DNA from: Pseudoxanthomonas sangjuensis
GTDB taxonomy: Bacteria > Pseudomonadota > Gammaproteobacteria > Xanthomonadales > Xanthomonadaceae
Assembly (NCBI RefSeq): GCF_010211755.1
Contig: NZ_PDWR01000006.1
Location: 62,001 to 126,000, forward strand
Length of the DNA: 64,000 bases
Reading direction: 5' to 3'
Shown: positions 16,943-47,676 of the stretch, one piece after another
Layout: each line of letters begins with the position of its first letter
How positions within the stretch are numbered: the stretch's first letter is position 1
Notes under the pieces: generated by a model
What the model was told of the DNA's origin: nothing
The model's database searches: none
Seen by the model: the letters and a program-made list of their open reading frames with translations, nothing else
Position numbers and translations under genes: made by a program

Positions 16943-18016
16943 TCAGTCTTGCGCCGCGGCCGGCGGCGGGGCGACCGAATCCCGCTTGACCAGCTGGTGC
17001 GCGACCACGTGGTCGATCATCTTGCGCGCCTCGCCTTCCTTGCGGCGGATGCCGCGCAGCAGGACGTCGATCGCCGAATCGGCCATCGAGGCGATCGGCT
17101 GGTGGATCGTGGTCAGTTCCGGCCACACCGTGGTCGCCGCGGAAGTGTCGTCGTAGCCGACCACCGACAGGTCGCGCGGCACGTCGAGGCCGCGCCGGTG
17201 CGCCACCGAAACCACGGCCGCGGCCATGTCGTCGTTGCTGGCGAAGATCGCGGTCGGCGCCTGCCTGCGTTCCAGCAGCTTCTCCGCCGCATCCAGCCCG
17301 GAGCGGTAGGTGAAATAGCCCTGCGCGACCAGCGCGCGGTCGAACTCGATGCCGGCCTGTTCCAGCGCGGCGCGATAGCCGTCGAAACGCAGCGCGCTGG
17401 CGGTCTGGTTCGGGTTGCCCTTGATGAAGCCGATGCGGCGGTGGCCGAACGCGATCAAGTGCTCGGTGATTTCCTTGCTGGCGCGGAAATCGTCGATGCG
17501 CACGCAGGAGATGTCGTCGTGGAAGCGGCCGGAAGCGATCGCGACCACCGGCACGCCGGCGCGGACCAGTTCCGTGACCACCACTTTCGACTCGCACAGC
17601 GGCGGCGGCAGGATCACCCCGGCCACGCTCTTGACCAGCGCGCGCGCGGCGTTGCGCTCGGCCTCGGCGTCGTATTCGTCCCAGGCGTCGATGACCAGCT
17701 GCGCCGCGGTGCGGGTCGCGCCGCGCAGCGCGCCGACCAGCAGCTCGCGCAGGTAGGCGCCGCTGGGGTTGGTGTAGATAAGGGCGATGCGCGTGCCCTG
17801 CGCCGCGGCCAGCGAACTGGCGGCCAGGTTCGGCGTGTAGCCCAGTTCGCGCACCGCGCGCATGACCCGCTCGCGGGTCGATTCGCGCACGTTGCCGGTG
17901 CCGTTGACCACGCGCGAGACGGTCATCGGCGAAACGTTGGCGAACGACGCCACCGCGTCGATGGTGACCGCTTGGCCCTTGCGCCGTACCGATTTGCGGG
18001 TGGTCTTCTTCGCCAA
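16943..18016 (-). CDS. xylR: LacI-family transcriptional repressor of the xylan/xylose regulon
   Basis: 357 residues. A basic tail precedes the LacI helix-turn-helix and hinge (VTIDAVASFANVSPMTVSRVVNGTGNVRESTRERV, then YTPNLAASSLA with the minor-groove-inserting leucine context), followed by a periplasmic-binding-protein-like effector domain and a C-terminal HQPIASMADSAIDVLL segment common to the family. It is divergent from the GH67 gene, and one operator copy lies between them. By position and by similarity to the Xanthomonas locus it should repress xylan genes through the five palindromes in this window until a xylose-derived ligand appears. The effector is not known from sequence. Confidence 0.88.
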   Translation of the reverse strand: MAKKTTRKSVRRKGQAVTIDAVASFANVSPMTVSRVVNGTGNVRESTRERVMRAVRELGYTPNLAASSLAAAQGTRIALIYTNPSGAYLRELLVGALRGATRTAAQLVIDAWDEYDAEAERNAARALVKSVAGVILPPPLCESKVVVTELVRAGVPVVAIASGRFHDDISCVRIDDFRASKEITEHLIAFGHRRIGFIKGNPNQTASALRFDGYRAALEQAGIEFDRALVAQGYFTYRSGLDAAEKLLERRQAPTAIFASNDDMAAAVVSVAHRRGLDVPRDLSVVGYDDTSAATTVWPELTTIHQPIASMADSAIDVLLRGIRRKEGEARKMIDHVVAHQLVKRDSVAPPPAAAQD

Positions 18017-18102
18017 TGTCCTTTCCTTCGGGCGCCGGGCGGCCTTCTATCGCGCCCGTCCGCCGGTCCCCACGATCCCATGCAGCCATGGAAATTTGCC
18101 CC

Positions 18103-20313
18103 ATGTTAGCGATAACGGCAACGGCCGGCGAACGCCTGCGCCGGACCTGCCGCCGTGCCGCCGCCTGCGCCGCGCTGCTGCTGGCCGCGGCAGCGCCTGC
18201 GCTTCCGGCGCAGGCCGAGGACGGCTACGCGCTGTGGCCGCGCTACAAGCCGCTGCCGGCGCAGCAGGCCGAAGCCTGGCGCGCCGCGGCGGCGCAACTG
18301 GTGGTTGCCGACGCCACGCCGACGCAGCGGGCGACGCGCGAAGAGCTGCAGCGCGGCCTCGCCGGGCTGCTCGGAGCGGCGCCGGAACCGTCGCCGGCGG
18401 CGACCCGCGACGGCGCCATCGTCGTCGGCACGCCCGTCTCGCAGCCGGCGATCGCACGGCTCGGGCTCGACACCGCCGCGCTCGGCGACGAGGGCTACCT
18501 GATCCGCAGCGTGGAGATCGACGGCCATGCGGCGACGGTCGTGGCCGGCCACAGCGACCTCGGCGCGCTGTACGGCGCGTTCCGTTTCCTGCGCCTGCTG
18601 CAGACCGGCCAGGCGCCGGCCGGGCTCGACCTGCGCGACGCGCCGAGGGTGAAGCTGCGCCTGCTCAACCACTGGGACAACCTGAACCGCCACGTCGAAC
18701 GCGGCTACGCCGGCGAATCGATCTGGGACTGGCACAAGCTGCCGGACTACCTGGATCCGCGCTACACCGACTACGCGCGCGCCAACGCTTCGATCGGCAT
18801 CAACGGCACCGTGCTCAACAACGTCAGCAGCGACACCGCCGACGTGCTGACCGCGCCGTACCTGGAGAAGGTGGCGGCGCTCGCCGGCGTGTTCCGCGCC
18901 TGGGGCATCCGCGTCTACCTGGTGCCGCGGTTTTCCGCGCCGATCGAGATCGGCGGGCTGAAGACCGCCGACCCGCTCGATCCGCAGGTGCGGCGATGGT
19001 GGCGCGACAAGGTCGACGAGATCTACCGCTACGTCCCCGATTTCGGCGGCTTCCTGGTCAAGGCCAATTCCGAAGGCCAGCCCGGCGCGCAGGACTACGG
19101 CCGCAGCCACGCCGACGGCGCCAACGTGCTGGCCGACGCGCTGGCCCCGCACGGCGGCGTGGTGTTCTGGCGCGCCTTCGTCTACAAGAGCGAGAACCGC
19201 GACGACCGCGCCAGGCAGGGCTACGACGAGTTCGTGCCGCTCGACGGCGAATTCCATCGCAACGCGATGGTGCAGGTGAAGAACGGCCCGATCGACTTCC
19301 AGCCGCGCGAGCCGTTCCACCCGCTGTTCGGGGCGATGCCGAAGACGCCGCTGGCGATGGAATTCCAGATCACCAAGGAATACCTCGGCTTCGCCACCCA
19401 CCTGGCCTACCTCGGGCCGATGTACGAGGAAACGCTGCGCGCCGACACGTACGCCAGGGGCAAGGGCTCGACCGTGGCGAAGGTGGTCGACGGCTCGCTG
19501 TTCGGGCACGAACTGACCGCGATGGCCGGCGTCGCCAACATCGGCACCGACCGCAACTGGAGCGGCTCGATCTTCGACCAGGCCAACTGGTACGCGTTCG
19601 GCCGGCTGGCGTGGGATCCGCAGGCGTCGTCGCGCGACATCGCCGAAGACTGGGTGCGGATGACGTTCTCGAACGACCCGGCGCTGGTCGAACCCGTCGT
19701 CGGGATGATGATGCGTTCGCACCAGGCGGTGGTCGACTACATGACCCCGCTCGGCCTCGCCCACCTGATGGGCACCGGACACCACTACGGTCCCGCGCCG
19801 TGGGTCGCCGACCTCGATCGTCCCGAATGGAATCCGGTCTACTACCACCGCGCCGACGCGGGCGGCATCGGCTTCGAGCGCGGGCCCGGGGGCAGCAATG
19901 CGGTGGCCCAGTACGCCGCGCCGCTCGCGCGCGAATTCGCCGATGTCGCCAGCACGCCGGAGCCGTTCCTGCTCTGGTTCCACCACGTGCCGTGGGATCA
20001 CCGGATGAAGTCGGGCCGGCCGCTGTGGGACGAACTGGTCGCGCATTACGACCGCGGCGTCGACGAGGTGAAGGCGATGCGCGCCACGTGGCGCGGCCTC
20101 GGCGGCCATGTCGATGCCGAGCGCCACGCGCAGGTCGCCGCCTTCCTCGCGATCCAGCAGAAGGAGGCGCAGTGGTGGCGCGACGCCAGCATCGCCTACT
20201 GGCAGAGCCTCAACGGCCTGCCGTTGCCGGCCGGGCACGCGCCGCCGGCGCACAAGCTCGACTACTACGAGTCGCTGTCGTTCCCGTTCGCTCCAGGAAA
20301 CCATTCACGATGA
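18103..20313 (+). CDS. agu67A: GH67 alpha-glucuronidase
   Basis: About 736 residues. It removes (4-O-methyl)glucuronic acid from the non-reducing end of xylo-oligosaccharides. The N-terminus contains a signal peptide (RR-rich start, hydrophobic AAACAALLLAAAAPALPAQA), so it is exported. GH67-type blocks include WDNLNRHVERGYAGESIWDW, INGTVLNNVSSD, VKANSEGQPG with a catalytic acidic residue, RAFVYK and the C-terminal WFHHVPWDHRMKSGR. The start is uncertain: ATG 18103 or 18088, neither with a strong ribosome site, and the operator begins at 18104, one base into the 18103 start codon. It heads a tightly packed operon running to uxuB. Confidence 0.92.
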   Translation: MLAITATAGERLRRTCRRAAACAALLLAAAAPALPAQAEDGYALWPRYKPLPAQQAEAWRAAAAQLVVADATPTQRATREELQRGLAGLLGAAPEPSPAATRDGAIVVGTPVSQPAIARLGLDTAALGDEGYLIRSVEIDGHAATVVAGHSDLGALYGAFRFLRLLQTGQAPAGLDLRDAPRVKLRLLNHWDNLNRHVERGYAGESIWDWHKLPDYLDPRYTDYARANASIGINGTVLNNVSSDTADVLTAPYLEKVAALAGVFRAWGIRVYLVPRFSAPIEIGGLKTADPLDPQVRRWWRDKVDEIYRYVPDFGGFLVKANSEGQPGAQDYGRSHADGANVLADALAPHGGVVFWRAFVYKSENRDDRARQGYDEFVPLDGEFHRNAMVQVKNGPIDFQPREPFHPLFGAMPKTPLAMEFQITKEYLGFATHLAYLGPMYEETLRADTYARGKGSTVAKVVDGSLFGHELTAMAGVANIGTDRNWSGSIFDQANWYAFGRLAWDPQASSRDIAEDWVRMTFSNDPALVEPVVGMMMRSHQAVVDYMTPLGLAHLMGTGHHYGPAPWVADLDRPEWNPVYYHRADAGGIGFERGPGGSNAVAQYAAPLAREFADVASTPEPFLLWFHHVPWDHRMKSGRPLWDELVAHYDRGVDEVKAMRATWRGLGGHVDAERHAQVAAFLAIQQKEAQWWRDASIAYWQSLNGLPLPAGHAPPAHKLDYYESLSFPFAPGNHSR
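18104..18117. promoter_or_regulatory. xyl-box operator at the agu67A start (TGTTAGCGATAACG)
   Basis: Near-palindromic LacI-type site differing from the xylB operator at two positions (A for C, G for A). It overlaps the start codon of agu67A and lies 88 bp upstream of the divergent repressor gene, so it may control both. Confidence 0.7.
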
Positions 20314-32459: not shown

Positions 32460-33278
32460 ATGTTTCCCACACTGACCCGCCATGCCGTCGCCGACGGCGC
32501 ACGCTGGGCGCTCGATGGCCGTTACCTGCCACCGGATTTCCGCCTTGCCGACTGGTTGGCGCTGCCGCCGTCCGAAGCGCGCGCGGCCCTGTCGCGCCTG
32601 CGCTGCGAGGGAACCGCGAGCGCGCCGCTTCTGCCGCCCATCGAGGACGCGCAGGAAGCATGGGCCAGCGGCGTGACCTACCTGAGCAGCCGCCTGGCGC
32701 GCGAAGCCGAATCGCAGAGCAGCGACGTGTACGTGCGCGTCTACGATGCGCCGCGCCCGGAGCTGTTCTTCAAGGCCTGTGGCTGGCGCGCCAGGGGCCA
32801 CGGCCAGCCGATCCGCATTCGCGGCGACAGCGCCTGGAACGTGCCCGAACCGGAACTGGTGCTGGTGCTGGATGCGTCCGGCAACATCGTCGGCTACACG
32901 GCGGGCAACGATGTCTCTTCACGCAGCATCGAAGGCGAGAATCCGCTGTACCTGCCGCAGGCCAAGGTCTACGACGGCGCCTGCGCGATGGGCTCGGGCA
33001 TCCGCCTGTGCGGGCCGGCGCAGTTGCGCGACCTGCCGATCGCGCTGGACATCGTGCGCGCCGGCGCCAGCGTGTTCGCCGGAAGCACCCGCACATCGCA
33101 GATCAAGCGCACGCTGGAGGAGCTGGCGGAGTACCTGTTCCGCGAACTGGGCTTCCCGCACGGCGCCTTCCTGTTCACCGGTACCGGCATCGTGCCGGGC
33201 GAAGACTTCAGCCTGCAGCCCGGCGATGTCGTGCACGTCGACATCGGCGGGCTGGTGCTGGAAAACCCGGTGCGATAG
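32460..33278 (+). CDS. Fumarylacetoacetate-hydrolase-family dehydratase, probable 2-keto-3-deoxy-pentonate dehydratase
   Basis: 272 residues. The FAH fold is shown by [46 protein letters not shown], which carries the acidic metal ligands, and by the C-terminal [24 protein letters not shown]. This branch resembles 2-keto-3-deoxy-D-arabinonate dehydratase and XylX, which form alpha-ketoglutarate semialdehyde. The next gene encodes the preceding step (pentonate dehydratase), which supports that reading. It is shorter at the N-terminus than XylX proteins. The start ATG 32460 follows GAGG. The 139-bp gap after the GH9 gene shows no promoter I can support. Confidence 0.72.
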
Positions 33279-33366: not shown

Positions 33367-35379
33367 ATGGCCGCCAACGACTTCGATCCGGATTCCCTGC
33401 TCGGCGACGGCTCGGCCGTCGCGGCCACGCGCACCTCGGGCGAAGGCCCGCGCGGGAGGCTGCCGATCGACGAGCGTGCGCTGCTGGACCAGCCCAGCGG
33501 CCACCTGTTCGGGTTGAGCCTCAACGCCGGCATGGGTTGGCGCGTCGACGAAGTCATGCGCGACCCATTCCTGATCGTCAGCACGCAGGGCGGCCTGCGC
33601 GCCGAGGACGGCCGGCCCGTCGCGCTCGGTTTGCACACGGGGCACTGGGAGATCGACCGGCTGGTGCGCACCGCCGCCGAAACCTTCGCCGCGAACCGGG
33701 GCTTGCCGTTCTCGGTGATGTGCAGCGATCCGTGCGACGGCCGCTCGCAGGGCACCACCGGCATGTTCGACAGCCTGCCGTATCGCAACGACGCGGCGAT
33801 CGCGATGCGGCGGCTGATCCGTTCGCTGCCGCAGCGCCGCGGCGTGCTCGGCATCGCGACCTGCGACAAGGGCCTGCCGGCGACGATGATGGCCCTGGCC
33901 GGTTGTTCCGACCTGCCGTGCGTGGTCGTGCCCGGCGGCGTGACCCTGCCGGCGCGCGGCGGCGAGGATGCCGGCACCGTGCAGACCCTAGGCGCGCGCT
34001 ATGCGCATGGCCTGGTCACGCTGGAGCACGCCGCCGAAATGGGCTGCAAGGCTTGCGGTTCGCCGGGCGGCGGCTGCCAGTTCCTCGGCACCGCGGCGAC
34101 CTCGCAGGTCGTCGCCGAGGCGCTCGGCGTGGCGCTGCCGCACAGTGCGCTGGCGCCGTCGGGCGAGCCGGCGTGGATCGACATCGCGCGGCGTTCGGCG
34201 CTGGCGTTGATGCACCTGGCGCGGCGCGGCATCCCGCTCTCGGAAATCCTCACGCGCAAGGCGTTCGAGAACGCGCTGGTCGTGCATGCGGCGTTCGGCG
34301 GTTCGACCAACCTGCTGCTGCACGTGCCGGCGATCGCGCACGCCGCGGGCATCGCGCCGCCGACGGTCGCGGACTGGACCCGCGCCAACCACGCCACGCC
34401 GCGCCTGGTCGACGCGCTGCCGAACGGCCCGCGCCACCACCCGACCGTGCAGGTGTTCATGGCCGGCGGCGTGCCCGAGGCGATGCTGCACCTGCGCGAG
34501 CGCGGCCTGCTGCACCTCGATGCATTGACCGTCAGCGGACGGACCCTCGGCGAGAACCTCGACTGGTGGGAACGGAGCGCCGAACGTGCCGCGTCGCGGG
34601 CGCGGCTGCGCGAACTCGATGGCGTCGATCCGGACCGCGTGATCATGGGCGCGGACGCCGCGCGCGCCGCCGGCCTGACCAGCGCGCTGGTGTTCCCGGT
34701 CGGCAACCTCGCGCCCAAGGGCTCGGTGATCAAGGCCACCTCGATCGATCCGTCCGTGGTCGACGCCGACGACGTCTATCGCCACACCGGTCGCGTGCGC
34801 CTGTTCGCGGCCGAGCACGCGGCGATCCGCGCGATCAAGTCCAGGGGCGGCGACGCGGTGAAGCCGGGGGAAGTGCTGGTCCTCGCCGGCTGCGGCCCCG
34901 CCGGCACCGGCATGGAGGAAACCTACCAGGTCACCTCCGCGCTCAAGCACCTGCCGTGGGGCAAGCACGTGCCGGTGATCACCGACGCGCGCTTCTCCGG
35001 CGTGTCGACCGGCGCCTGCATCGGCCACGTCGGCCCCGAGGCGCTGGCCGGCGGCCCGCTCGGCAAGCTGCGCGACGGCGACTGGGTGCGCATCGAGATC
35101 GACCGCGGCCGCCTGCTCGGCCGCATCGACTTCATCGGCGCCGACCCCGGGCATCCGCTGACCCCGGAGCAGGGCGCGACGCTGCTCGCGCAACGCGACG
35201 TGCATCCGGCGCTCGCGCCGCATCCGAAACTGCCCGCCGACACCCGGCTGTGGGCCGCGTTGCAGGCCGCCAGCGGCGGCACCTGGGCCGGCTGCGTCTA
35301 CGACGCCGACACGATCATCGAAACGCTGCGCGCGGGCCGGGCCGAGCTCGCGCGCCGCGGCAAGGAGCGCAAGGAATGA
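33367..35379 (+). CDS. IlvD/EDD-family dehydratase, YjhG/YagF-type D-xylonate dehydratase
   Basis: 670 residues, close to E. coli YjhG/YagF in length and in many blocks: [71 protein letters not shown] and [11 protein letters not shown]. Three conserved cysteines (in SDPCDG, ATCDKG and CKACG) would hold the iron-sulphur cluster. Those E. coli enzymes dehydrate D-xylonate to 2-keto-3-deoxyxylonate. It lies between the KDX-dehydratase-like gene and a GntP permease overlapping by four bases, a coherent pentonate operon. No xylose dehydrogenase is encoded nearby. Confidence 0.85.
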
Positions 35380-36683
35380 CCTCGATCCTCATCATCCTCG
35401 CCGCGATCGCCCTGCAGATCTTCCTGACGGCGAGGAAAGTCAGTCCGTTCCTGTCGCTGCTGTTCGTCGCGATCCTCACCGGGCTGTGCCTGGGCATGTC
35501 GCCGCAGCAACTGCTCAAGGCCATCGAGACCGGCGCCGGCAGCACCCTCGGCGGCCTGGCCCTGGTCATCTGCCTGGGTGCGGCGCTGGGGAAGATCCTC
35601 GAGGAGAGCGGCGCCGCGGAACGCATCGCGGGCACCCTGGTCGGCGCGTTCGGCGAGAAGAACATCCAGTGGGCGGTACTGCTGACCGGCTTCCTCGTCG
35701 GCCTGCCGCTCTACTACAACGCCGGCTTCATCATCCTGATCCCGCTGATCTTCGGGCTGGCCAGGAAGACGGGGTTGCCGCTGCTGTACATCGCCATCCC
35801 GACCGCCGCCTCGCTGAGCACCACGCACGGCTTCCTGCCGCCGCACCCGGGCCCGGTGGTGCTGGTGAAGGCGTTCCAGGCGGACATGGGCAAGACCCTG
35901 CTGTACGGCCTGCTGATTGCGGTCCCCGCGGTGATCGTCGCCGGGCCGTTCCTCGGCAAGTACATGAAGCGGATCCCCGCACCGGGCTCGGCGCTGTTCT
36001 CCACCGCCACCGAACCCAAGTCGCTGCCGGCGGCCTTCCCCTCGTTCTTCTTCGCATTGCTGCCGGTGTTGCTGATCGCGGCGTCGGTGCTGGCCGCCCG
36101 CCTGCTGCCCGAGGGCTTCGCGCGGACGACGCTGCTGTTCGCCGGCGATTCCAACATCGCCCTGCTGGTGTCGGTTCTGGCGGCGCTGTGGTACTTCGGC
36201 GTGCGCCGCGGCGTCGACATGGACACGCAGACGCGCTGGGTCAACCAGGCCATCTCCGGCATCGCCGTCATCGTGCTGATCATCACTGCCGGCGGCGTGT
36301 TCAAGCAGGTGCTCACCGACAGCGGCACCGGCGACTACATCTCCTCGTTCAGCCGGGCCTGGCACATGCCGCCGCTGCTGTTCGCGTGGCTGGTGGCGGC
36401 GCTGCTGCGGGTGATGATCGGCTCGGCGACGGTGGCGGGCATCACCGCCGCGGGCGTGGTGTCGCCGCTGCTGGCGACGACGGACGTGTCGCCGGAGCTG
36501 CTGGTGCTGTCGGTGGGCGCGGGCAGCGTGTTCTGCTCGCACGTCAACGACTCGGCGTTCTGGATGTTCAAGGAGTTCTTCGGCGTCTCGATGAAGCAGA
36601 CCTTCCTGTCGTGGACGGTGATGGAAACGACGATCTCGGTCATGGGCCTGGTCGGCGTGCTGCTGCTCGACGTGGTCGTGTGA
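35376..36683 (+). CDS. GntP-family aldonate permease
   Basis: 435 residues with about twelve to fourteen membrane helices. GntP-type segments are [62 protein letters not shown] and the C-terminal [18 protein letters not shown] with [16 protein letters not shown]. Members import gluconate and related aldonates with protons. It overlaps the xylonate dehydratase gene (ATGA), which points to xylonate or arabinonate as cargo. Confidence 0.88.
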
Positions 36684-38044: not shown

Positions 38045-39196
38045 CTAATGCTCCCGCGGTACCCGCAACACGGCCTCCAGCGCCGGCTTGGGCTTGCGCT
38101 CGCGGTCGAACAGCAACGGATAGTTGCTGCGGTTCGGGACCGGGTAGTCGTTCTTCCACGACATGCCGTCGTGCACGCCCCACAGGGTGACGCGGGCGAT
38201 CTTGTCGCGCTTGCGGTGGAACAGGCGGAACAGCTCGGCGTAGCGGTCGGCGAGCCGCTGCTGCACGTCCGGCGGCAGGCCGTCCTTGTACGGGTCGAGG
38301 TAGCGTTCGAACTCGGGCAGCTGGAATTGCGGGTGCAGCAGGCCGGTGCCGATGACCTGGCCTTCCCGGGTCAGCGGCAGCACGTCGACGTCCAGCTCGG
38401 TGATCATCACCTTGAGGCCGAGCGCCGCGTACGCATCGATCGCGGCCTCGATGTCGGCCAGGCCCGGATAGTTCAATCCCCAGTGCGCCTGGATGCCGAT
38501 GCCGTCGATGCGGATGCCGTGCGCCTGCAGCATCTTCGCCATGCGCACGATGCCGTCGCGCTTGGCCGGGCGCTCGGCGTTGAAGTCGTTGTAGTACAGC
38601 TCGGCATCCGGCGCGTAGCGGTGGGCGAATTCGAACGCCTTGCGCACCAGCTCGTCGCCGTCGCCGACGGCCTTGACCCAGGCGGTGTCCGCGCGGTACG
38701 CGCCGTCTTCGCCGATCACTTCATTGACCACGTCCCAGGCATCGACGCGGCCGGCGTAGCGCCCGGCGACGGTCTCGATGTGCCGGCGCATCCGTTCGAT
38801 CTGCGCCGCGGGCGCGTTCGGTTTGCCGTTCGCGTCGGAGAAGAACCATGCCGGCGTCTGGTTGTGCCAGACCAGGGTATGGCCGACGACGAACATGCCG
38901 TGGCGTTCGCCGAATTCGACGAAGGCGTCGGCCGCGGAGAAGTCGTAGGCGTCCGGTTTCGGACTCACGACCTCGGCCTTCATCACGTTCTCCGGCGTGA
39001 CCGAGTCGAAGTGGCGCAGGACCAGTTCCCGCGAAGCCATGTCCCGGCCCGAGACGATGTCGTCGTTGACCGCGACGCCGACCAGGAAGTCGCCGGCATA
39101 GGCGTCCTTCAGCGTGGCCGCGCCGTGCGGCGCACACGCGCAAAGCACCGTCGAGACGACGGCCAGCAAGGCGGCCAGATGCGCGTTCGCCGCCAT
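38045..39196 (-). CDS. xyn10A: GH10 endo-1,4-beta-xylanase
   Basis: 383 residues. A signal sequence ends in VLCAC, so it may be lipid-anchored at C21. The GH10 barrel has HTLVWHNQTPAWFF, acid/base E159 in WDVVNEVIGE and nucleophile E267 in MITELDVDV. It cuts the xylan backbone or long oligosaccharides. Its start shares one base with the uxaC stop (TGATG), so the two are translationally coupled; it is the last gene of the minus-strand operon. Confidence 0.94.
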   Translation of the reverse strand: MAANAHLAALLAVVSTVLCACAPHGAATLKDAYAGDFLVGVAVNDDIVSGRDMASRELVLRHFDSVTPENVMKAEVVSPKPDAYDFSAADAFVEFGERHGMFVVGHTLVWHNQTPAWFFSDANGKPNAPAAQIERMRRHIETVAGRYAGRVDAWDVVNEVIGEDGAYRADTAWVKAVGDGDELVRKAFEFAHRYAPDAELYYNDFNAERPAKRDGIVRMAKMLQAHGIRIDGIGIQAHWGLNYPGLADIEAAIDAYAALGLKVMITELDVDVLPLTREGQVIGTGLLHPQFQLPEFERYLDPYKDGLPPDVQQRLADRYAELFRLFHRKRDKIARVTLWGVHDGMSWKNDYPVPNRSNYPLLFDRERKPKPALEAVLRVPREH

Positions 39197-40620
39197 CACA
39201 GCCGGTACGCCTGCTTCGGCAGGCGATAGGCGAGGTCGGTGGCGAGTTCGGCCGCTTCGTCCTCGTCGATCCGGTGTTCCGCCACCAGCTTCGCCAGCAC
39301 CGCGCAGTCGATGCGCCGGGCCACGTCGTGGCGCGCGGGGATCGACAGCAAGGCGCGGGTATCGTCGTTGAAGCCGATCGTGTTGTAGAAGCCCGCCGTG
39401 CCCAGCGTCTGCTCGCGCAGGCGCCACATGCCCTCGGGCGAATCGTGGAACCACCATGCCGGGCCGAGGAACAGGCACGGATAGTGGCCGGCCAGCGGGC
39501 CGAGCTCGCGCGAATAGGCGCTTTCGTCCAGCGTGAACAGGATGAATCTGAAGTCCGGCTCGTTGCCGAAGCGGTCGAGCAGCGGCTTCAGCGCATGCAC
39601 GTACTCGGTGCGCAGCGGCAGGTCGGCGCCGACGTTGCGGCCGTAGCGTTCGAACAACGCCGGGTTGTGGTTGCGATGGCAGCCCGGGTGCAGTTGCATG
39701 ACCAGGCCGTCGTCCAGGCTCATCGCCGCCATCTCGGTCAGCATCTGGGCGCGGAACAGTTCGGCTTCGTGCGCGCTGGACTGGCCGCGCACGACCCGGT
39801 CGAACAGGGCGCGCGCTTCCCGTTCGGAAAGATCGGCGGTCGCCGCGGTTTCGTGGCCGTGGTCGGTCGACGTGGCGCCCATCTTCGCGAAGAAGCCGCG
39901 GCGGTCGCGGTGCGCGCGCAGGTAGCCGTCCCAGGTGTAGACGTTCTCGCCGGTGATCTCGCCGAAGCGTTCCAGGGCGCCGGCGAAGTCCTCGTGCTCC
40001 GGATCGATCACGACGTCCGGGCGGTACGCGGTCAGCACGCGGCCGCTCCAGCCGCTGTCGCGGATCGCCCGGTGGTGTTCGAGCGTATCGAGCGGACCTT
40101 CGGTGGTGGCGATGACTTCGATGTTGAAGCGCTCGAACAGCGCGCGCGGCCGGAATTCCGGCGTCTGCAGCGCGGCGGTGATCGTGTCGTAGTACCGGTC
40201 GGACGTGGTCGCGTCGAGGCGCTGGCGCAGGCCGAACACCTCGAAGAAGACGTGGTTCAGCCACAGCGACGAAGGCGTGCCGCGGAACAGGTGGAAGTTG
40301 CCCGCGAACGTGCGCCACGCCTCGCGCGGATCGACGTCGGCGCGCGAACCGTCCCGGCGCGGGATGCCGAGCGCGTCCAGCGGCACGCCCTGGCTGTAGA
40401 GCATGCGGAACAGGTAGTGGTCCGGCACCAGCAGCAGCTCGGTGGCGTTGGCGAACGGTGCGTTCTGCGCCCACCACGACGGATCGGTGTGGCCGTGCGG
40501 GCTGACGATCGGCAGCTTCGCGACCTGCGCGTACAACCGGCGCGCGATGCCGCGCTGCGCCGGGTCGGACGGGAACAGGCGGTCTTCGTGCAAGGCCAGG
40601 GGCTTGGGGGAGGCGTTCAT
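39196..40620 (-). CDS. uxaC: Glucuronate isomerase
   Basis: 474 residues. It converts D-glucuronate to D-fructuronate in the cytoplasm. Family blocks include SPHGHTDPSWWAQN with metal-binding His residues, YLFRMLYSQG, VIATTEGPLDTLEHH, LHPGCHRNHNP and GPAWWFHDSPEGMWR. The product feeds uxuB and manD encoded at 22-29 kb. It lies downstream of the repeat element and the GH115 remnant and is coupled to xyn10A. Confidence 0.94.
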   Translation of the reverse strand: MNASPKPLALHEDRLFPSDPAQRGIARRLYAQVAKLPIVSPHGHTDPSWWAQNAPFANATELLLVPDHYLFRMLYSQGVPLDALGIPRRDGSRADVDPREAWRTFAGNFHLFRGTPSSLWLNHVFFEVFGLRQRLDATTSDRYYDTITAALQTPEFRPRALFERFNIEVIATTEGPLDTLEHHRAIRDSGWSGRVLTAYRPDVVIDPEHEDFAGALERFGEITGENVYTWDGYLRAHRDRRGFFAKMGATSTDHGHETAATADLSEREARALFDRVVRGQSSAHEAELFRAQMLTEMAAMSLDDGLVMQLHPGCHRNHNPALFERYGRNVGADLPLRTEYVHALKPLLDRFGNEPDFRFILFTLDESAYSRELGPLAGHYPCLFLGPAWWFHDSPEGMWRLREQTLGTAGFYNTIGFNDDTRALLSIPARHDVARRIDCAVLAKLVAEHRIDEDEAAELATDLAYRLPKQAYRL

Positions 40621-40655
40621 GAATGCCGCCGTTCTTCCGGATTGATGCGGATTGT

Positions 40656-40775
40656 GCCCCTCTCCCGTTGCACGGGGCGAGGGTTGGCGCGGGGTGGGTC
40701 GGCAAGCCGGACCGCGCGCTTGCGCCCGCGTTTGCCCCCCTTCCTGCCTCCCCTGCAAGCGGGGAAAGCGATGTT
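40656..40775. repeat. Intergenic palindromic repeat element, copy B
   Basis: CCCTCTCCCGT pairs with ACGGGGCGAGGG on the left and CCCCTGC with GCGGGG on the right, around a GC-rich spacer; the layout matches the unit at 15.3 kb. It directly abuts the broken end of the GH115 remnant. Confidence 0.6.
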
Positions 40776-40779
40776 GGTC

Positions 40780-41038
40780 GGCGCGGTCATGCCGGAAAGC
40801 GTGCGGCCAAGGTTCGGCATGGCCAGTCATCCGACGCCGGGCGCGGCCACGGTGCGGGGTAATGCCGCGCTTCGAGGGCGACCGGTCCGTCGCCCTCGAC
40901 GAAGCCGGCCGGTTTCCCGGTCGACGGCACGACGACCGGTACGGCGATACGCATTCCGGTACGGTCGCTGCCGGGCAGGAACGGCTGCGCGGCGTGTTCG
41001 CCCGCCTGCGGTGCCGGGGCATGCAGCGACAATTTCAT
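40780..41038 (-). pseudogene. Remnant of a GH115-like alpha-glucuronidase C-terminus
   Basis: Minus-strand frame from ATG 41038 reads GMRIAVPVVVPSTGKPAGF, then VEGDGPVALEARHY, resembling the 'GFVE.DGYVSIEAEHY' region near the C-terminus of GH115 xylan alpha-1,2-glucuronidases. A one-base frame change near 40821 brings in MPNLGRTLSGMT, which resembles the following part of that family. It then runs into the repeat element. The catalytic portion is absent. It overlaps the upstream lactonase stop codon (ATGA). The family call is from memory of motifs. Confidence 0.4.
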
Positions 41039-42990
41039 TGTCGCCATCCCTTGAAGCCTTCGACCAGATGCACGCGCCACAGGTCGCGGTGCGAGGTCAG
41101 GTACAGCGTGCGGCCGTCGTCGCCGAACGTGCAGTTGGAAATCTCGGTGCCGGTGACGATGCGGCCGAGGCGGCGGCCGTCCGGCGCCATCACCAGCACG
41201 CCGCCGGGCGCGGTGGCGAAGATCGTGCCGTCGGCCGCGACCTTCATCCCGTCCGGCAGGCCCGGCGCATTCCCGGCGAGCAGGTCGGAGGCGTCGGCGA
41301 ACACGCGCTTGCCGACGACGTCGCCGGCGGCATCCAGCGCGTAGGCCATCCAGATCGGCCGCTTCGGGTCGGAGTTCGCCACGTACAGCGTTTTCTCGTC
41401 CGGCGACAGCGCGATGCCGTTGGGGAAACCCAAGCCGTCATCGACCAGGTGCACCGTGCCGTCGCGATCGATGCGGTAGACGCCGTTGCGCTTCTGTTCC
41501 TTCACCGGCGAGTCGTCGAGGCCGGCCAGTCCGTATGGCGGATCGGTGAAGTAGATGCTGCCGTCGCTGCGTTCGACCAGGTCGTTCGGGCTGTTCAGGC
41601 GCTGCCCCGCGAAGCGGGAGGCCAGCGTCCTGCGCTCGCGGCTGCCGAGGTCGAGCCGCACCACCGCGCGGTTGCCCGAGTCGGCGACCAGCAACGCGCC
41701 GTCGCGGGCGCGCGCCAGCCCGTTCGCGCCGGCCTCGCGCAGGGCGGGATCCGGCTTGCCCGCATAGCCCGACGGGCGCGCGAACACCGACAGGCCGTCG
41801 CCGGGCGACCAGCGGTACAGCGTGTTCTCCGGCACGTCGGTGAACAGCAGGTAGCCGCCGTCGTCGGCGATCCACAGCGGGCCTTCCGACCAGGTGAAGC
41901 CGTCGGCGAGCTTCTCGAACCTGGCGTCGGCGGCGACGATGGCGTCGAGCGCGGGATCGAAGCGTTCGATGCGGCCCGGCGCCGCGGACGCATCGTTCTT
42001 CGCCGGCCCGTCCACGCCGCGTACGTAGCCGCGCAGCCAGGCGAGGGCAGGGCGCTCGCTGCCGTCCTTGCGCACCAGGTTGGCGCCGTACGACCCGCGC
42101 CACAGGCCGGGGCGGAAGCCCCACAGGGTAATGCCGGCGACCGCCGGGTGTTCCCAGAACACCGGGAATACGCGCCGGTAGCTCGCCAGCTGTTCGGCAT
42201 CGCGCTTGCCGTCGATGTCCAGTTCGGTCACGTAGATCGGCAGGCCGCTGGCGGCCAGCAGGTCGAGGCTGGCCTTGTGTACCGGCATCGGCGTTTCGGT
42301 GGTGGTGGAGAACGAGTGCGCCTGCACGCCGATGCCGTCGAGCAGCTGCTCGCGGTTCAGCAGGTCGACGATTTCGCGGTAGCGCTTCGCGTCCGCCGGC
42401 GTGTTGGTGATGCTGTAGTCGTTGATCAGCAGCTTCGAGTGCGGGAAATACCGGCGCGCCATGCGGAACGATTCGAGGATCCAGTCCCAGCCGCTGGCGC
42501 CGGCGCCGCCGAGCGCCTCGAGGTAGTTGCCGCCGCCTTCGTCGTCCTTGCTTGGCGGGTCGTGCAGCGGCTCGTTGACCACTTCGACGAAATCGGCGTC
42601 CGGATAGCGCTGCGCGACCGCGGCGAACCATTCCTCGATTTCCTCGCGCTGCTCGGCCGGCGGCAGCTTCTCGATCCATTCCGGCTGCTGGTTGCCCCAG
42701 ACCAGCACGTGGTAGTGGAACGGGAAACCGTGCTCCCTGGCGAACCTGTACGCGGCATCGACGCCGCGCCAGTCCATCACGTCGCGCACCGCCTCGACCT
42801 CGCCCCACTTGCCGGCGTTCTCCGGCGTGACCTTGTTCCAGTACGAGGCGAAGTCCTTCGCCTGCGGCGGACTGTACGCGCTGCCGAGGAATTTCCCCTG
42901 TCCCGCGGCGAGCGGGGCGCCCTGCGCGAGCAGCGCGGGCGGCAGCGCGGACAGGACGGCGGCGAGCAGCAATGCGTTTGTCTTGTTCAT
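41035..42990 (-). CDS. Secreted fusion: GH10 xylanase + SMP-30/gluconolactonase-type lactonase
   Basis: 651 residues with signal peptide (cut near ALLAQG, residue 24). Residues 30-325 are a GH10 barrel with acid/base E140 (VEVVNEPLHD) and nucleophile E256 (YVTELDIDG); the usual HxQ in LVWHxQ is replaced by GNQ. After a short linker, residues about 345-651 form an SMP-30/gluconolactonase propeller with the metal-ligand Glu in WSEGPLWIADD (E369), NSPNDLVERSDGSIYFTDPPYG, FPNGIALSPDEKTLYVAN and GLPDGMKVAADG. One enzyme would cut xylan and the other open a sugar lactone. I do not know this domain pairing as a standard architecture. It lies between exuT and the GH115 remnant. Confidence 0.88.
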   Translation of the reverse strand: MNKTNALLLAAVLSALPPALLAQGAPLAAGQGKFLGSAYSPPQAKDFASYWNKVTPENAGKWGEVEAVRDVMDWRGVDAAYRFAREHGFPFHYHVLVWGNQQPEWIEKLPPAEQREEIEEWFAAVAQRYPDADFVEVVNEPLHDPPSKDDEGGGNYLEALGGAGASGWDWILESFRMARRYFPHSKLLINDYSITNTPADAKRYREIVDLLNREQLLDGIGVQAHSFSTTTETPMPVHKASLDLLAASGLPIYVTELDIDGKRDAEQLASYRRVFPVFWEHPAVAGITLWGFRPGLWRGSYGANLVRKDGSERPALAWLRGYVRGVDGPAKNDASAAPGRIERFDPALDAIVAADARFEKLADGFTWSEGPLWIADDGGYLLFTDVPENTLYRWSPGDGLSVFARPSGYAGKPDPALREAGANGLARARDGALLVADSGNRAVVRLDLGSRERRTLASRFAGQRLNSPNDLVERSDGSIYFTDPPYGLAGLDDSPVKEQKRNGVYRIDRDGTVHLVDDGLGFPNGIALSPDEKTLYVANSDPKRPIWMAYALDAAGDVVGKRVFADASDLLAGNAPGLPDGMKVAADGTIFATAPGGVLVMAPDGRRLGRIVTGTEISNCTFGDDGRTLYLTSHRDLWRVHLVEGFKGWRQ

Positions 42991-43022: not shown

Positions 43023-44309
43023 TCAGGCGGAAGCCGGCGGGTCTTCCAGTCGCGCCGGCTGCAGCCGCGGCGCCAGCAGGTGCACCAGCAGCAGCGCGAA
43101 CAGGTAGGCCGAGCCGGCGATCAGGAAGATGCGCGCGTAGCTGCCGGTGTACTGCAGCTGCGCGCCGGCGAAGTTCGACATCAGGATGCCGCCGACCGCG
43201 CCGGCGAAGCCGCCGATGCCGACCACCGACGCCACCGCGTGGCGCGGGAACATGTCCGACGGCAGGGTGAACACGTTCGCCGACCAGCCCTGGTGGCCGG
43301 CCATCGCCAGGCCGATCAGCGCCACCGCCGGCCACAGGCTGTCGATCCGGGCGACGAACGCCACCGGCACCACGCACAGCGCGCAGACCAGCATCGCGCC
43401 CTTGCGCGCACGGTTGACGTTCCAGCCCAGCTTGATGAAGCGCCCCGCGATCCAGCCGCCGGCGATGCTGCCGGCATCGGCCATCAGGTAGACGACGATC
43501 ATCGGCAGGCCGATCTTCGCCAGCGACAGGTCGAATTCCGAGGCCAGGTACTTGCCCAGCCAGAACAGGAACAGCCACCACACCGGGTCGGTGATGAACT
43601 TCGCCGCCACGAAGGCCCAGGCCTGGCGGTGGCGCAGCAATCGCAGCCACGGCAGCTTCACCGTCGTTTCCGGCGGGTCGCTGCGGATGTGCGCGAGTTC
43701 GGCCGGCGCAAGCTTCGGCTGTTCGTCCGGGGCGCGGTACCACAGCCACCAGACCGCCAGCCAGGTCGCGCTGAGCACGCCGGTGAACAGGAACGCCGGT
43801 TGCCAGCCCCACTTCGCCGCGATGACCGGCACCAGCAGCGGCGCGAGGATCGCGCCGATGTTCGAGCCGGCGTTGAACACGCCGACGGCGAGCGCGCGCT
43901 CGCGGCGCGGGAACCATTCGGCCACGGTCTTCACCGCGGCGGGGAAGTTGCCGGCTTCGCCCAGGCCCAGCGCGAAGCGCGCGGCGGCGAAGCCGAACGC
44001 GCTGCCGGCCAGCGCGTGCGTCATCGCCGCCACGCTCCACACGCTGATCGCGATCGCGTAGCCGATGCGCGTGCCGAAACGGTCGATGATCGCGCCGGCG
44101 CCGAGCAGGCCGATGGCGTACGCGGCCTGGAACGCGGCGACGATCCAGCCGTACTGGATCTCGTTCCAGCCGATCTCGTCCTGCAGGAACGGCGCGAGCA
44201 CGCCCAGCACCTGGCGGTCGACGTAGTTGATGGTCGTTGCCGCCAGCAGCATCGCGCAGACGCGCCAGCGGTACATGCCGATCCGCGTCGCGGGCGCGGC
44301 GGCATTCAT
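43023..44309 (-). CDS. exuT: MFS hexuronate transporter (ACS family, ExuT-like)
   Basis: 428 residues with twelve predicted helices. ACS-family traits are INYVDRQVLGVLAPFLQDEIGW at the first helix, AGAIIDRFGTRIGY, FGLGEAGNFPAAVKTVAEWFPRRERA-like sequence and FNAGSNIGAILAPLLVP. Such carriers import glucuronate/galacturonate with protons, matching uxaC in the same operon. The start ATG 44309 overlaps the stop of a possible 16-codon leader ORF. The operator at 44435 lies about 125 bp upstream. Confidence 0.87.
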   Translation of the reverse strand: MNAAAPATRIGMYRWRVCAMLLAATTINYVDRQVLGVLAPFLQDEIGWNEIQYGWIVAAFQAAYAIGLLGAGAIIDRFGTRIGYAIAISVWSVAAMTHALAGSAFGFAAARFALGLGEAGNFPAAVKTVAEWFPRRERALAVGVFNAGSNIGAILAPLLVPVIAAKWGWQPAFLFTGVLSATWLAVWWLWYRAPDEQPKLAPAELAHIRSDPPETTVKLPWLRLLRHRQAWAFVAAKFITDPVWWLFLFWLGKYLASEFDLSLAKIGLPMIVVYLMADAGSIAGGWIAGRFIKLGWNVNRARKGAMLVCALCVVPVAFVARIDSLWPAVALIGLAMAGHQGWSANVFTLPSDMFPRHAVASVVGIGGFAGAVGGILMSNFAGAQLQYTGSYARIFLIAGSAYLFALLLVHLLAPRLQPARLEDPPASA

Positions 44310-44356
44310 CGCCTCGCCCCCAGCCGTGCGTGCTCGCGTCGCAATACGTCGCGCAT
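44306..44356 (-). CDS. Possible 16-residue leader ORF coupled to exuT
   Basis: ATG 44356, with GGGAGAGG six bases upstream, opens MRDVLRREHARLGARR and ends in a TGA that overlaps the exuT ATG (ATGA). The ribosome site here is better than the one directly before exuT, so translation of exuT may depend on it. Arginine is frequent. No homology is recognised. Confidence 0.3.
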   Translation of the reverse strand: MRDVLRREHARLGARR

Positions 44357-44434
44357 GGTCCTCTCCCGAATGCTTCATCGCACCGCCACGGACGTTCACG
44401 GGGTTTGCCCGGACCGGCAGCAGGTCCGCCAAGT

Positions 44435-44448
44435 TGGTAGCGCTATCA
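44435..44448. promoter_or_regulatory. xyl-box operator for the exuT-xylanase operon (TGGTAGCGCTATCA)
   Basis: Near-perfect LacI-type palindrome, one mismatch from the 44605 copy. Centre to centre it is 170 bp from that site, on the minus-strand side of the divergent intergenic region. Confidence 0.75.
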
Positions 44449-44604
44449 TTAACACAGACACGCCGGCCGCAGCTACTCCGGCCAGCCGCGCGGCACGGCT
44501 TGTGCATTGCCGCATCAGCGGCGGAATTCCAGTGTCGCGCGGTGTTTTCGCGGATTGCCGGAGACGGGTCTGGCCATGCTGCTATGCAGCGTGCGGGCAA
44601 GAAA

Positions 44605-44618: not shown

Positions 44619-44760
44619 TCGCGCCGGCATGGCCCCGCCGATCCGGGGTCGTGATCGCGTTGCGATGCACAGCAAAAAAACCAGCCGGCCGGCACGCCGC
44701 GAAGACATGACGCGGGCGCCGGCCACCGGAACGGACCACCAGAAACTGGAGGGGAGTACG

Positions 44761-47676
44761 GTGCAAAACGAATATGCGAAAACGGCGTTGTCGCGCGCGC
44801 TGGGTCTGGTCTTGCTGGGCATGGCCAGCGGTACGGCCTTCGCGCAAACCGCGGAACCGGCCGCTGCGCCGGCGACGCAGGCCGACCCGGCACAGACCGA
44901 GCAGGCGCAGGCGACCGAGCAGAAGGTGACCGAACTCGACCGCGTGATTGCTACCGGTTACCGGCAGAGCCTGCAGTTCTCGACCGAAGCCAAGCGCGAG
45001 GCGACCGGCTTCACCGACTCGATCTTCGCCGAGGACATCGGCAAGTTCCCCGACACCAACATCGCCGAGTCGCTGACCCGCATCCCGGGCATCCAGCTGG
45101 ACCGCGACGTCAACGGCGAAGGCCTGAACATCGGCATCCGCGGCCTGCCGCAGAGCTTCACCAAGACCCTGATCAACGGCGGCGAGGCGGCCACCGCCTC
45201 GATCGGCCTCAACCGCGGCAACCAGAACCGCGAGCTCGACCTGAACCTGTTCCCGACCGAATTCTTCAACAAGCTGACCGTGTACAAGTCGCCGCAGGCC
45301 AGCCTGCCCGAAGGCGGCATCTCCGGCGTGGTCGACATGCGCAACGTGCGCCCGTTCGACAACCCCGGCCAGCACCTCAACTACACCGCGCAGCTCGACT
45401 ACAACAGCATCGGCAAGGACGTGAACCCGCGCGGTTCGCTGATCTGGAGCTGGACCAACGACGCGGGCACCTTCGGCGCCCTGGCCGGCGTGTCCTCGGT
45501 ACGCAGCACGATCTCGGTGCAGGGCTGGGAGTCGATCGGCTGGATGAACCCCGGCCTCAACTACCAGCAGTGCGGCATCGCCGCGCCCGAAGGCGTCGAC
45601 CCGCTGACCACGCGCCCGGCCGAATGCAACCCCGGTGGCGGCGGCAGCCTGCAGATGCCCGATACCGTGCCCGGCACCGACGATCCGCTGGACGCGGCCT
45701 ACCTGCTGGCGCAGAACCCGGGCCTGAGCATCGACCAGATCACCGAAGCGCTGTTCCCGCGCCTGGGCCGTCCCGTCGACATGGCCGGCGACCGCAACCG
45801 CGACGCCTTCATCGGTTCGCTCGAATGGCGCCCGAACGAGGACATGCACTTCTACCTCGACACCTCGTACGTCAAGGCGACCTACGAGAACGACCGCGTC
45901 GACATGAACCTGGTCGGCCGCACCTTCGGCCCGGTCGGCTTCATCCCGACGAACATGCAGCTGGACGCGAACAACGTGGTCACCAGCGCCACCCTGCTCA
46001 ACGCCCAGTTCTTCCTCGAGGCGCGCCCGTACCGCGACGAAGTGCAGTACTGGAACTTCGGCCCGGGCGCGACCTTCTGGTTCGGCGAGAACGACGACAT
46101 CAAGCTGGACATCTCCGGCAACTGGAGCCGCAGCTGGTTCTTCCGCGAGTCGCCGACCATCCTGGTGACCTCGCCGCGGACCACGCTCGAGTACACCAAC
46201 AACGGCCAGCCCGCCTGGACCACCGGTGGCCTGGACCTCAACGACCCGAACGCCGGCTGGAGCTTCGACGGCGGCCGCGTCAACCTGAACAACGAGAAGC
46301 GCGTGACCGAGGCCGGCCGCATCAAGGCCGACCTGCAGTTCGGCGAAGACCGGCGCAACGTCAAGGTCGGCGCGTCGCTGGACAAGTTCCACCGCACCAT
46401 CGTCGGCTTCGACAACAGCGCGGCGTGGCAGGCCAACGTGTTTTCGCTGATCAACGCCGGCAACCTGCCGCAGTACCTGCGCCCCGGCCCGCTCGGCTTC
46501 ATCACCGCCGACTTCGCCGCGTTCATGGACGCGACCGATTACCAGACCTACTTCGACAACGCGCCGGAATCCAACACCTCGCAGTCGGTCGGCGCGGCCT
46601 CGGGCGGCGTGGACGAGAGGAACTTCGCCGCCTACGTCGAATTCAACGGCGAGGCCGAGGTCTGGAACCGCAACCTGCGCTTCAACGGCGGCGTGCGCTA
46701 CATCGACACCGACCAGGACATCAGCGGCCCGGTCACCCTGGGCGCGGTGCGCGAATGGCAGACGCTGTCGAGCAGTTACGACGAGTGGCTGCCGTCGTTC
46801 AACGCGGCGTGGGACGTGGCCGAAAACTGGGTGCTGCGCCTGGCCAGTTCGCGCACGCTGACCCGCCCGAACCCGCGCTCGATGCTGCCGGCCACGACCT
46901 TCTCCGATCCGTCGGCCGAGATCGCCGACCAGGGCAACCCGAACCTGGCGCCGTACCTGTCCACCAACTTCGACCTGGGCCTGGAGTGGTACACCGGCGA
47001 CGAAGGCATGGTGGCGCTGAGCATGTTCAACAAGCGCGTATCCGGCTACACCTTCCAGGGCATCAACGTCATCCCGTTCCGCAACCTGGGCATCCCGCTG
47101 GAAGCGTTGTCCGCGAACCAGCTGTCGGCGCTGAACGCCAACGGTGGCCTCGACGCGCCGATCAACGTGCGCCAGCAGGTCAACGCCGACGCCACCCTGG
47201 ACATCCAGGGCTGGGAGTTCATCTGGGTGCAGCCGCTGGACTTCGTGTTCGAAGGCCTGGGCTTCATGGCCAACTACACCGACATCGACCTGGAGCCGGT
47301 GGGCCAGGAAGCCGACCAGCTGGCCGGCAACCTGTTCGGCATCTCGCCGACCATGTGGAACGCCACCGCCTACTGGGAGAACGACGTCGCCTCGGTGCGC
47401 CTGTCGTACAACTGGGTGGAAGGCTCGGCGCAGCGCGCGCTCGGCAACAACGAAGGCGGCCTCAACTACGCGCAGTACTTCGGCAAGGACCGCGGCCAGC
47501 TGGACTTCTCGGCCAGCTACACGCTTGCCGGCCTGCCCAGCAAGCCGCAACTGACCTTCAACGTGGTGAACGTCACCAACGAGGAACTGCGCAACTACCT
47601 GGCGTTCCCGAACGTCCCGGGCGAGGTGTACAACCCCGGGCGCACGTTCCTGCTCGGCATCCGCGGTACGTTCTGA
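44761..47676 (+). CDS. TonB-dependent receptor, probable xylo-oligosaccharide importer
   Basis: 971 residues. The GTG start at 44761 follows GGAGGGGAG and yields a clean signal peptide (to about residue 29, AFAQ); in-frame ATGs upstream would place over forty odd residues ahead of it. A Pro/Gln/Ala linker leads to the plug (DIGKFPDTNIAESLTRIPGIQLDRDVNGEG) and a 22-strand-type barrel ending in FLLGIRGTF. The NIAESL/GIQLDRD form is typical of the large carbohydrate-linked receptors of Xanthomonadaceae. The operator and neighbours indicate xylan oligosaccharides as substrate. A hairpin without T-run follows at 47718-47750. Confidence 0.92.
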   Translation: MQNEYAKTALSRALGLVLLGMASGTAFAQTAEPAAAPATQADPAQTEQAQATEQKVTELDRVIATGYRQSLQFSTEAKREATGFTDSIFAEDIGKFPDTNIAESLTRIPGIQLDRDVNGEGLNIGIRGLPQSFTKTLINGGEAATASIGLNRGNQNRELDLNLFPTEFFNKLTVYKSPQASLPEGGISGVVDMRNVRPFDNPGQHLNYTAQLDYNSIGKDVNPRGSLIWSWTNDAGTFGALAGVSSVRSTISVQGWESIGWMNPGLNYQQCGIAAPEGVDPLTTRPAECNPGGGGSLQMPDTVPGTDDPLDAAYLLAQNPGLSIDQITEALFPRLGRPVDMAGDRNRDAFIGSLEWRPNEDMHFYLDTSYVKATYENDRVDMNLVGRTFGPVGFIPTNMQLDANNVVTSATLLNAQFFLEARPYRDEVQYWNFGPGATFWFGENDDIKLDISGNWSRSWFFRESPTILVTSPRTTLEYTNNGQPAWTTGGLDLNDPNAGWSFDGGRVNLNNEKRVTEAGRIKADLQFGEDRRNVKVGASLDKFHRTIVGFDNSAAWQANVFSLINAGNLPQYLRPGPLGFITADFAAFMDATDYQTYFDNAPESNTSQSVGAASGGVDERNFAAYVEFNGEAEVWNRNLRFNGGVRYIDTDQDISGPVTLGAVREWQTLSSSYDEWLPSFNAAWDVAENWVLRLASSRTLTRPNPRSMLPATTFSDPSAEIADQGNPNLAPYLSTNFDLGLEWYTGDEGMVALSMFNKRVSGYTFQGINVIPFRNLGIPLEALSANQLSALNANGGLDAPINVRQQVNADATLDIQGWEFIWVQPLDFVFEGLGFMANYTDIDLEPVGQEADQLAGNLFGISPTMWNATAYWENDVASVRLSYNWVEGSAQRALGNNEGGLNYAQYFGKDRGQLDFSASYTLAGLPSKPQLTFNVVNVTNEELRNYLAFPNVPGEVYNPGRTFLLGIRGTF

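Follow-up and report, generated by a model that had tools for sequence, protein, structure and literature searches.

A GH10 xylanase joined to an SMP-30/gluconolactonase-family domain in the xylan locus of Pseudoxanthomonas sangjuensis

For the N-terminal half of the protein described here, the best solved match is XynB of Xanthomonas citri, a GH10 endo-1,4-xylanase (4pmx, 4pmy, 4pn2) that is 67% identical over residues 25-325 and, unlike the present protein, has no lactonase domain. In the available part of a review, X. citri XynB is described as yielding xylo-oligosaccharides and the exo-oligoxylanase XynA as yielding xylose (PMC13282271). The C-terminal half belongs to the SMP-30/gluconolactonase family (SGL) and is closest among solved structures to XC5397 (3dr2) and 3e5z, which share its six-bladed propeller and motifs and differ from it in being unfused and 31-32% identical; XC5397 was active on glucono-1,5-lactone and inactive on the two 1,4-lactones tested, according to the accessible portion of PMC12362111. 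The xylonolactonase XylC of Caulobacter crescentus (7plb) has the same fold as the C-terminal half and would catalyse the reaction proposed below, and differs in its lack of a fusion and its identity of 21%.

In the xylan clusters of Xanthomonas, xyn10C is flanked by genes annotated as ‘gluconolactonase’ (Potnis et al. 2011, PMC3071791); as far as the excerpted text describes it, this is a separate gene and, from its place beside the second xylanase, apparently the unfused counterpart of the C-terminal half. A natural fusion of an SGL to another enzyme is likewise described from Deinococcus, a Cu/Zn-SOD-SGL whose operon holds a sugar dehydrogenase, and which differs from the present case in its partner and in being poor on sugar lactones and acting on 2-coumaranone (same portion of PMC12362111). 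For the D. radiodurans protein, encoded in a glucose dehydrogenase operon, hydrolysis of glucono-1,5-lactone is reported there as only slightly accelerated (PMC12362111), so the inference of a substrate from gene context calls for caution. No GH10-SGL fusion was found in the open-licence literature searched; the parts are known and the join, within that literature, is new.

The fusion gene lies in a stretch of 64,000 nucleotides (hereafter the window; GCF_010211755.1, contig NZ_PDWR01000006.1, positions 62,001 to 126,000) from a 3.29 Mb genome that is 99.96% complete (G000). Positions below are those of the window.

Domain architecture of the fusion protein

The ORF at 42990-41035 on the minus strand has a continuous translation of 651 aa with 0 internal stops, and is divided as follows.

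41035 to 42990, minus strand: GH10 (XynB type)-SGL fusion gene, 651 aa plus stop (translation, Pfam, model)
42916 to 42990, minus strand: signal peptide region, approximately residues 1-25, without a lipobox cysteine (by eye; solved XynB chains align from residue 25)
42037 to 42867, minus strand: GH10 domain, residues 42-318, with E140 and E256 (Pfam, Foldseek)
41977 to 42018, minus strand: junction or linker, approximately residues 325-338 (pLDDT below 50 at 326-336; unlike the Root494 linker)
41089 to 41892, minus strand: SGL six-bladed propeller, residues 367-634, with E369, NSPND, PNG and PDG (Pfam, alignment, Foldseek)

A sequence-only reading of this DNA had described one polypeptide with a complete GH10 and a complete SGL domain, and this was borne out by the unbroken ORF and by Pfam scores far above the cut-offs: residues 42-318 match PF00331 (2.3e-53; 181.9 bits against a cut-off of 22.1; profile positions 27-307 of 311) and residues 367-634 match PF08450 (1.4e-47; 162.8 bits against 26.3; profile positions 1-245 of 246). 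In the translation, E140, E256, E369, NSPND (466-470) and PNG (523-525) sit where that reading had placed them, and PDG is present at 579-581. From family knowledge we take E140 and E256 to be the GH10 catalytic glutamates, and E369, NSPND, PNG and PDG to be SGL metal or catalytic positions. The C-terminal half aligns with 3dr2 and 3e5z at all of the latter positions, and the motif residues are invariant across 19 aligned SGLs.

An AlphaFold2 model of the fusion (25 aligned rows) had a mean pLDDT of 82.1 and a pTM of 0.53. Averaged per ten-residue block, pLDDT was mostly 83-97 in the SGL, 41-94 in the barrel and below 50 at the junction (residues 326-336), so that both domains are formed in the model, which does not fix their relative arrangement. 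In the Foldseek results, X. citri XynB 4pmx ranked first (N-terminal half, 67% identity), the gluconolactonases 3e5z and 3dr2 came next (C-terminal half, 31-32% identity) and the Caulobacter xylonolactonase 7plb stood at rank 49 (TM-score of 0.74 by its own length). Structure prediction of both domains had been suggested as a check by the sequence-only reading. With a TIM barrel that matches 4pmx in the model and both glutamates kept, the GH10 half is a putative xylanase; the SGL half is, from its context and fold, a candidate xylonolactonase (EC 3.1.1.68).

Read by eye, the N-terminus resembles a Sec signal and has no lipobox cysteine. The earlier description of the polypeptide as ‘secreted’ is partly established by this, with export, to either the periplasm or the medium, being a prediction from sequence. 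An assembly artefact was considered as the origin of the join and rejected because a separate assembly, that of Lysobacter sp. Root494, encodes a full-length protein of like architecture that is 74-75% identical.

The xylan locus and its lactonase in relatives

The fusion is located in a standard Xanthomonadaceae xylan locus. Genes of the window to which we refer below are listed here.

16943 to 18016, minus strand: LacI-type regulator beside GH67 (profile search)
18016 to 20313, plus strand: GH67 alpha-glucuronidase (profile search)
32460 to 33278, plus strand: FAH-family protein, candidate 2-keto-3-deoxy-xylonate dehydratase (PF01557; putative function)
33367 to 35379, plus strand: YjhG/YagF-family D-xylonate dehydratase (TIGR03432, 1046.1 bits against a cut-off of 808.15)
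35376 to 36683, plus strand: GntP-family permease (PF02447, TIGR00791)
38045 to 39133, minus strand: second GH10 xylanase, named Xyn10A here, start not fixed (PF00331; nearest solved chains 4pmv/4pmu, which we take to be the X. citri exo-oligoxylanase XynA)
39196 to 41022, minus strand: UxaC glucuronate isomerase (ORF; true start likely inside; PF02614)
43023 to 44600, minus strand: MFS transporter (ORF; true start likely inside; PF07690)
44629 to 47676, plus strand: TonB-dependent receptor (PF00593, PF07715)

Further genes of the window were assigned by Pfam and NCBIfam to an FGGY kinase, a sugar transporter, ManD, GH43, GH3 with PA14, GH9, a second MFS, another GH43, an aldose epimerase and a mannitol-dehydrogenase-family protein, taken as UxuB; a xylose-isomerase-like match in the profile search of the window was below its cut-off. 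Gene order is largely kept in relatives, and the fusion occupies, between the MFS and UxaC genes, the place that XynB has in many of them.

Among 77 XynB loci of named genomes, an SGL orthologue was found within the fetched stretch in 41, and in the remaining 36 it is either absent or outside the fetched flank. Of these 41 orthologues, 39 are unfused, with a spacing of 289 to 8,813 bases, one is fused to XynB (L033) and one to Xyn10A (L038). Across 198 drawn genomes of the family, XynB was present in 30, SGL in 31 and both in 23. A scripted lipobox test was passed by 41 of the 52 SGL rows with readable N-termini (some rows share a genome). The 11 failures divide into four fusion rows (the window; L033 and L144, from one genome; L038), three rows with a lipobox-like cysteine by eye (L034; L116 and L143, from one genome) and four without such a cysteine (L082; L093; L115 and L142, from one genome).

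The unfused SGL is thus predicted to be mostly a lipoprotein, so that the fusion would swap this anchor for the signal peptide of the xylanase. The sequence-only reading had held that a lactonase tethered to a xylanase implies a lactone formed at or near xylan. Tethering implies less than this, because both halves are already predicted to be exported, untethered, as partners in the same locus of unfused relatives. The part of the claim that gains support is the handling of a lactone in the same compartment, and by the same gene cluster, as the breakdown of xylan, given that SGL recurs in xylan loci, is joined to two xylanases and lies near a D-xylonate operon.

Number and origin of the joins

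Lysobacter sp. Root494 (L033) carries a second XynB-SGL fusion, whose linker differs from that of the window, and Lysobacter changpingensis (L038:18224-20269; genome shared with L174) carries a Xyn10A-SGL fusion (GH10 8-355, SGL 398-664) whose signal peptide looks ordinary when read by eye. When 64 SGL loci were tested for a partner in the same frame (49 with XynB and 42 with Xyn10A in the stretch; genomes overlap), the join was found solely in the window, Root494 and L. changpingensis. Because XynB-SGL and Xyn10A-SGL are different joins, there are, judged by their sequences, at least two separate fusion events in the family. Known fused genomes amount to 3 of the 31 SGL-bearing genomes among the 198 of the family, and the fusion is present in 1 of 38 genomes of the window's genus. 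No other match spanning both halves was found in 398 drawn genomes of the order (E-value ≤ 1e-40) or in 369 genomes of the class (E-value ≤ 1e-30), both searches being blind to Xyn10A-SGL joins; the fused genomes G074 and G148 were not among the matches of the order sample.

A single origin of both XynB-SGL fusions, imposed as one clade on a XynB tree (31 rows selected from 83, the 83-row tree being a quick tree), had a p-AU of 0.397, and the corresponding test on an SGL quick tree had a p-AU of 0.21. The XynB tree groups Root494 with the unfused Vulcaniibacterium L034 (support 91/86). One event behind the window and Root494 fusions is, on this phylogenetic evidence, neither shown nor rejected by either tree.

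The join itself may be near-neutral, the exported partners having fused once their genes adjoined, with the halves working as before and no gain from the tether. The rarity of the fusion and the dissimilar linkers of the two XynB fusions are consistent with this, as is the placement of an unfused SGL directly behind XynB in L075, where 289 bases separate them, and in L117/L137, a MAG locus; both arrangements look like the stage preceding a join. That separate joins arose two or more times, with both xylanases of the locus as partners, argues against it. We regard a near-neutral join as evenly poised between true and false, about as likely as a xylonolactonase role for the SGL half, with which it is compatible.

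Alternatively, the SGL half of the fusion may be in decay, or may act as a non-catalytic binding or stabilising module. The window SGL has a long branch in the quick tree (0.57, against 0.21 for Root494) and a raised dN (0.24-0.26, against 0.16-0.17 between unfused pairs), both of which speak for such a change. However, every motif residue is retained, dN/dS against four relatives is approximately 0.23-0.53 and thus below 1, and the pLDDT blocks of the propeller are mostly 83-97, so we consider this alternative improbable.

Xylonate genes, lactone sources and substrate

The genes for YjhG, the FAH-family protein and the GntP permease lie about 4.4-8.6 kb from the SGL half in the window. YjhG exceeded its cut-off (TIGR03432) in 11 of the 198 family genomes, including 5 of the 31 that bear SGL (p-value of 0.016); 26 of the 31 are without YjhG, and six YjhG-bearing genomes are without this SGL. 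Where both are present, they lie within approximately 6 kb in four genomes and on separate contigs in the fifth (G097). In L166, L167 and L168 (Luteimonas group), SGL is divergent from an operon of FAH, a gap, YjhG and GntP, and in L166 and L168 the gap corresponds to an aldehyde dehydrogenase, as it does in L170, for which no SGL is shown. This dehydrogenase, the last Weimberg enzyme, had no close match in the window's genome (best 28% identity, E-value 8e-14), where a different aldehyde dehydrogenase could replace that of the L166-type operon.

No sugar oxidase was seen in the xylan locus of the window. Elsewhere, the window's genome encodes a Gfo/Idh/MocA protein with a twin-arginine-like N-terminus (RRR motif by eye), whose best match among solved chains is the Caulobacter aldose-aldose oxidoreductase (AAOR) 5a02 (257 bits; 189 bits for 1ofg), and which is thereby a candidate Tat-exported AAOR. 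The available parts of two sources describe C. crescentus AAOR as having a TAT signal and as converting D-xylose and other aldoses to aldonolactones (PMC9795676; PMC4628093). According to the former, again in part, a maltotriose complex of AAOR exists and pentonolactones open spontaneously, slowly (PMC9795676), so the gain from SGL would be one of rate.

At E-value ≤ 1e-60, this AAOR-like protein (AAOR in the counts below) was found in 49 of the 198 genomes, with 28 of the 31 SGL-bearing (p-value of 1e-17) and 11 of the 11 YjhG-bearing genomes (8e-8) among them; at ≥ 55% identity it was found in 38 of 198, with 18 of 31 (1e-7) and 11 of 11 (3e-9), respectively, all p-values being without phylogenetic correction. 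Ten of the AAORs in the 28 genomes that have SGL and AAOR at the loose threshold are only 42-46% identical, and the match in Root494, the second XynB-SGL genome, is only 45%. When the comparison was restricted to the 30 XynB-bearing genomes, AAOR was present in 21 of 23 with SGL and 4 of 7 without at the loose threshold (p-value of 0.068), and in 12 of 23 and 4 of 7 at ≥ 55% identity (0.74); AAOR is therefore tied better to YjhG than to SGL, and its association with SGL may reflect lifestyle only. In at least 22 of the 49 AAOR-bearing genomes (L209 among them), another SGL paralogue lies approximately 2 kb or less from AAOR, and the two look like a second oxidase-lactonase pair of this family. 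No such AAOR-adjacent paralogue was found in the window's genome, where the only other SGL-region match had an E-value of 8.8e-7.

PQQ glucose dehydrogenase was discarded as a lactone source, as the PQQ_2 match of the genome looks, by eye, like a lipoprotein of the BamB type. Three GSDH-type aldose dehydrogenases in the window's genome (L176, L177 and L178) have lipobox-like N-termini by eye; since PqqD was not found in that genome, we treat them as a lesser possibility. In this genome they may use scavenged PQQ or another cofactor.

We propose that the fusion is an exported XynB xylanase joined to an exported xylonolactonase of the same locus, feeding xylonate uptake, a reading in which our confidence falls a little short of even. 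It would unite two established members of the xylan locus, XynB as the endoxylanase and SGL as the lactonase, which are separately exported, by prediction, in relatives. The GH10 half would make endo-cleavages in xylan or xylo-oligosaccharides; a lactone would arise extracytoplasmically, perhaps through exported AAOR acting on xylose or oligosaccharide ends; the SGL half would open aldonolactones, most likely D-xylono-1,5-lactone; and the xylonate would pass by GntP uptake to YjhG and then the FAH-family protein, as a side branch to the routes through xylulokinase and glucuronate that the locus also serves. For the fusion, we infer the substrate, lactone source, compartment, flux and any benefit of tethering. 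Several of the observations above weigh against this proposal: YjhG is absent from 26 of the 31 SGL-bearing genomes and this SGL from six YjhG-bearing ones, the locus showed no sugar oxidase, AAOR follows SGL weakly or not at all among XynB-bearing genomes and often neighbours a different SGL, the Luteimonas-type aldehyde dehydrogenase has no close match here, the window SGL has a long branch and raised dN, and the D. radiodurans SOD-SGL is poor on glucono-1,5-lactone. Of the three lactones named in the sequence-only reading, xylonolactone is the best supported, and nothing was found for a glucuronic lactone or a polymer-bound lactone.

The SGL half might instead act on a compound other than xylonolactone, such as gluconolactone, L-arabinonolactone, an aromatic lactone or ester (lignin-carbohydrate), or aldobionic lactones, which AAOR or the oxidases of other organisms would make from xylo-oligosaccharides. 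Membership of the SGL family leaves the substrate unfixed, the nearest solved relatives are gluconolactonases with 7plb only 49th, and YjhG is absent from most SGL-bearing genomes; the maltotriose complex of AAOR (PMC9795676) and the action of the SGL of DrSOD on 2-coumaranone (PMC12362111), each taken from part of its source, point the same way. Against this stand the xylonate genes close to SGL in the window and in three further genomes, and the conservation of SGL alongside xylan genes, and we consider another substrate possible, on the doubtful side.

Returning to the xylonolactonase reading, we extend it to the family more tentatively, as an idea that we would sooner doubt than accept: Xanthomonadaceae xylan loci may run an extracytoplasmic oxidative branch, with the fusions marking lactonase and xylanase side by side. 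Part of the xylose released by the xylanases would be converted to xylonolactone by exported AAOR, the dedicated lactonase of the locus (a lipoprotein, or fused to XynB or Xyn10A) would open it, and the xylonate would enter via GntP to the YjhG pathway if present, and otherwise remain outside as acid. Gene fusions are natural pointers to function, and these give a testable role to SGL in the xylan clusters of Xanthomonas, Lysobacter, Luteimonas and Pseudoxanthomonas, where it was hitherto unexplained. The pair of fusions suggests that part of the xylose of xylan may be oxidised ahead of its entry into the cytoplasm, and a one-chain xylanase-lactonase could aid xylonate production from hemicellulose.

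In sequences from beyond the family, SGL matches occur close to GH43 genes, at 45-47% in L196 and L198 and at 63% in L192; a GntP match of 29% was found in L196 and a dehydratase match of 28% in L197. Several minor observations were made in the same data. In G207, a draft genome from the same genus as the window (locus L117/L137), XynB has a missing stretch and a frame change upstream of a contig-end SGL that has a lipoprotein-like start, and the damage to XynB is either an assembly error or decay. In the window, a single ORF at 2240-4417 (plus strand) combines a beta-lactamase-family domain, DUF3471 and a D-Ala-D-Ala dipeptidase (Peptidase_M15). Two IMG/VR viral contigs (L110 and L111) carry an XynB-type GH10, approximately 60% identical, at one end of the sequence fetched, as phage cargo or mis-called bacterial DNA. 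Long additional sequence N-terminal to GH10, perhaps carbohydrate-binding modules, is present in XynB relatives from Steroidobacteraceae, Bacteroidota and others (L085-L089, L092, L098, L101, L102 and L108).
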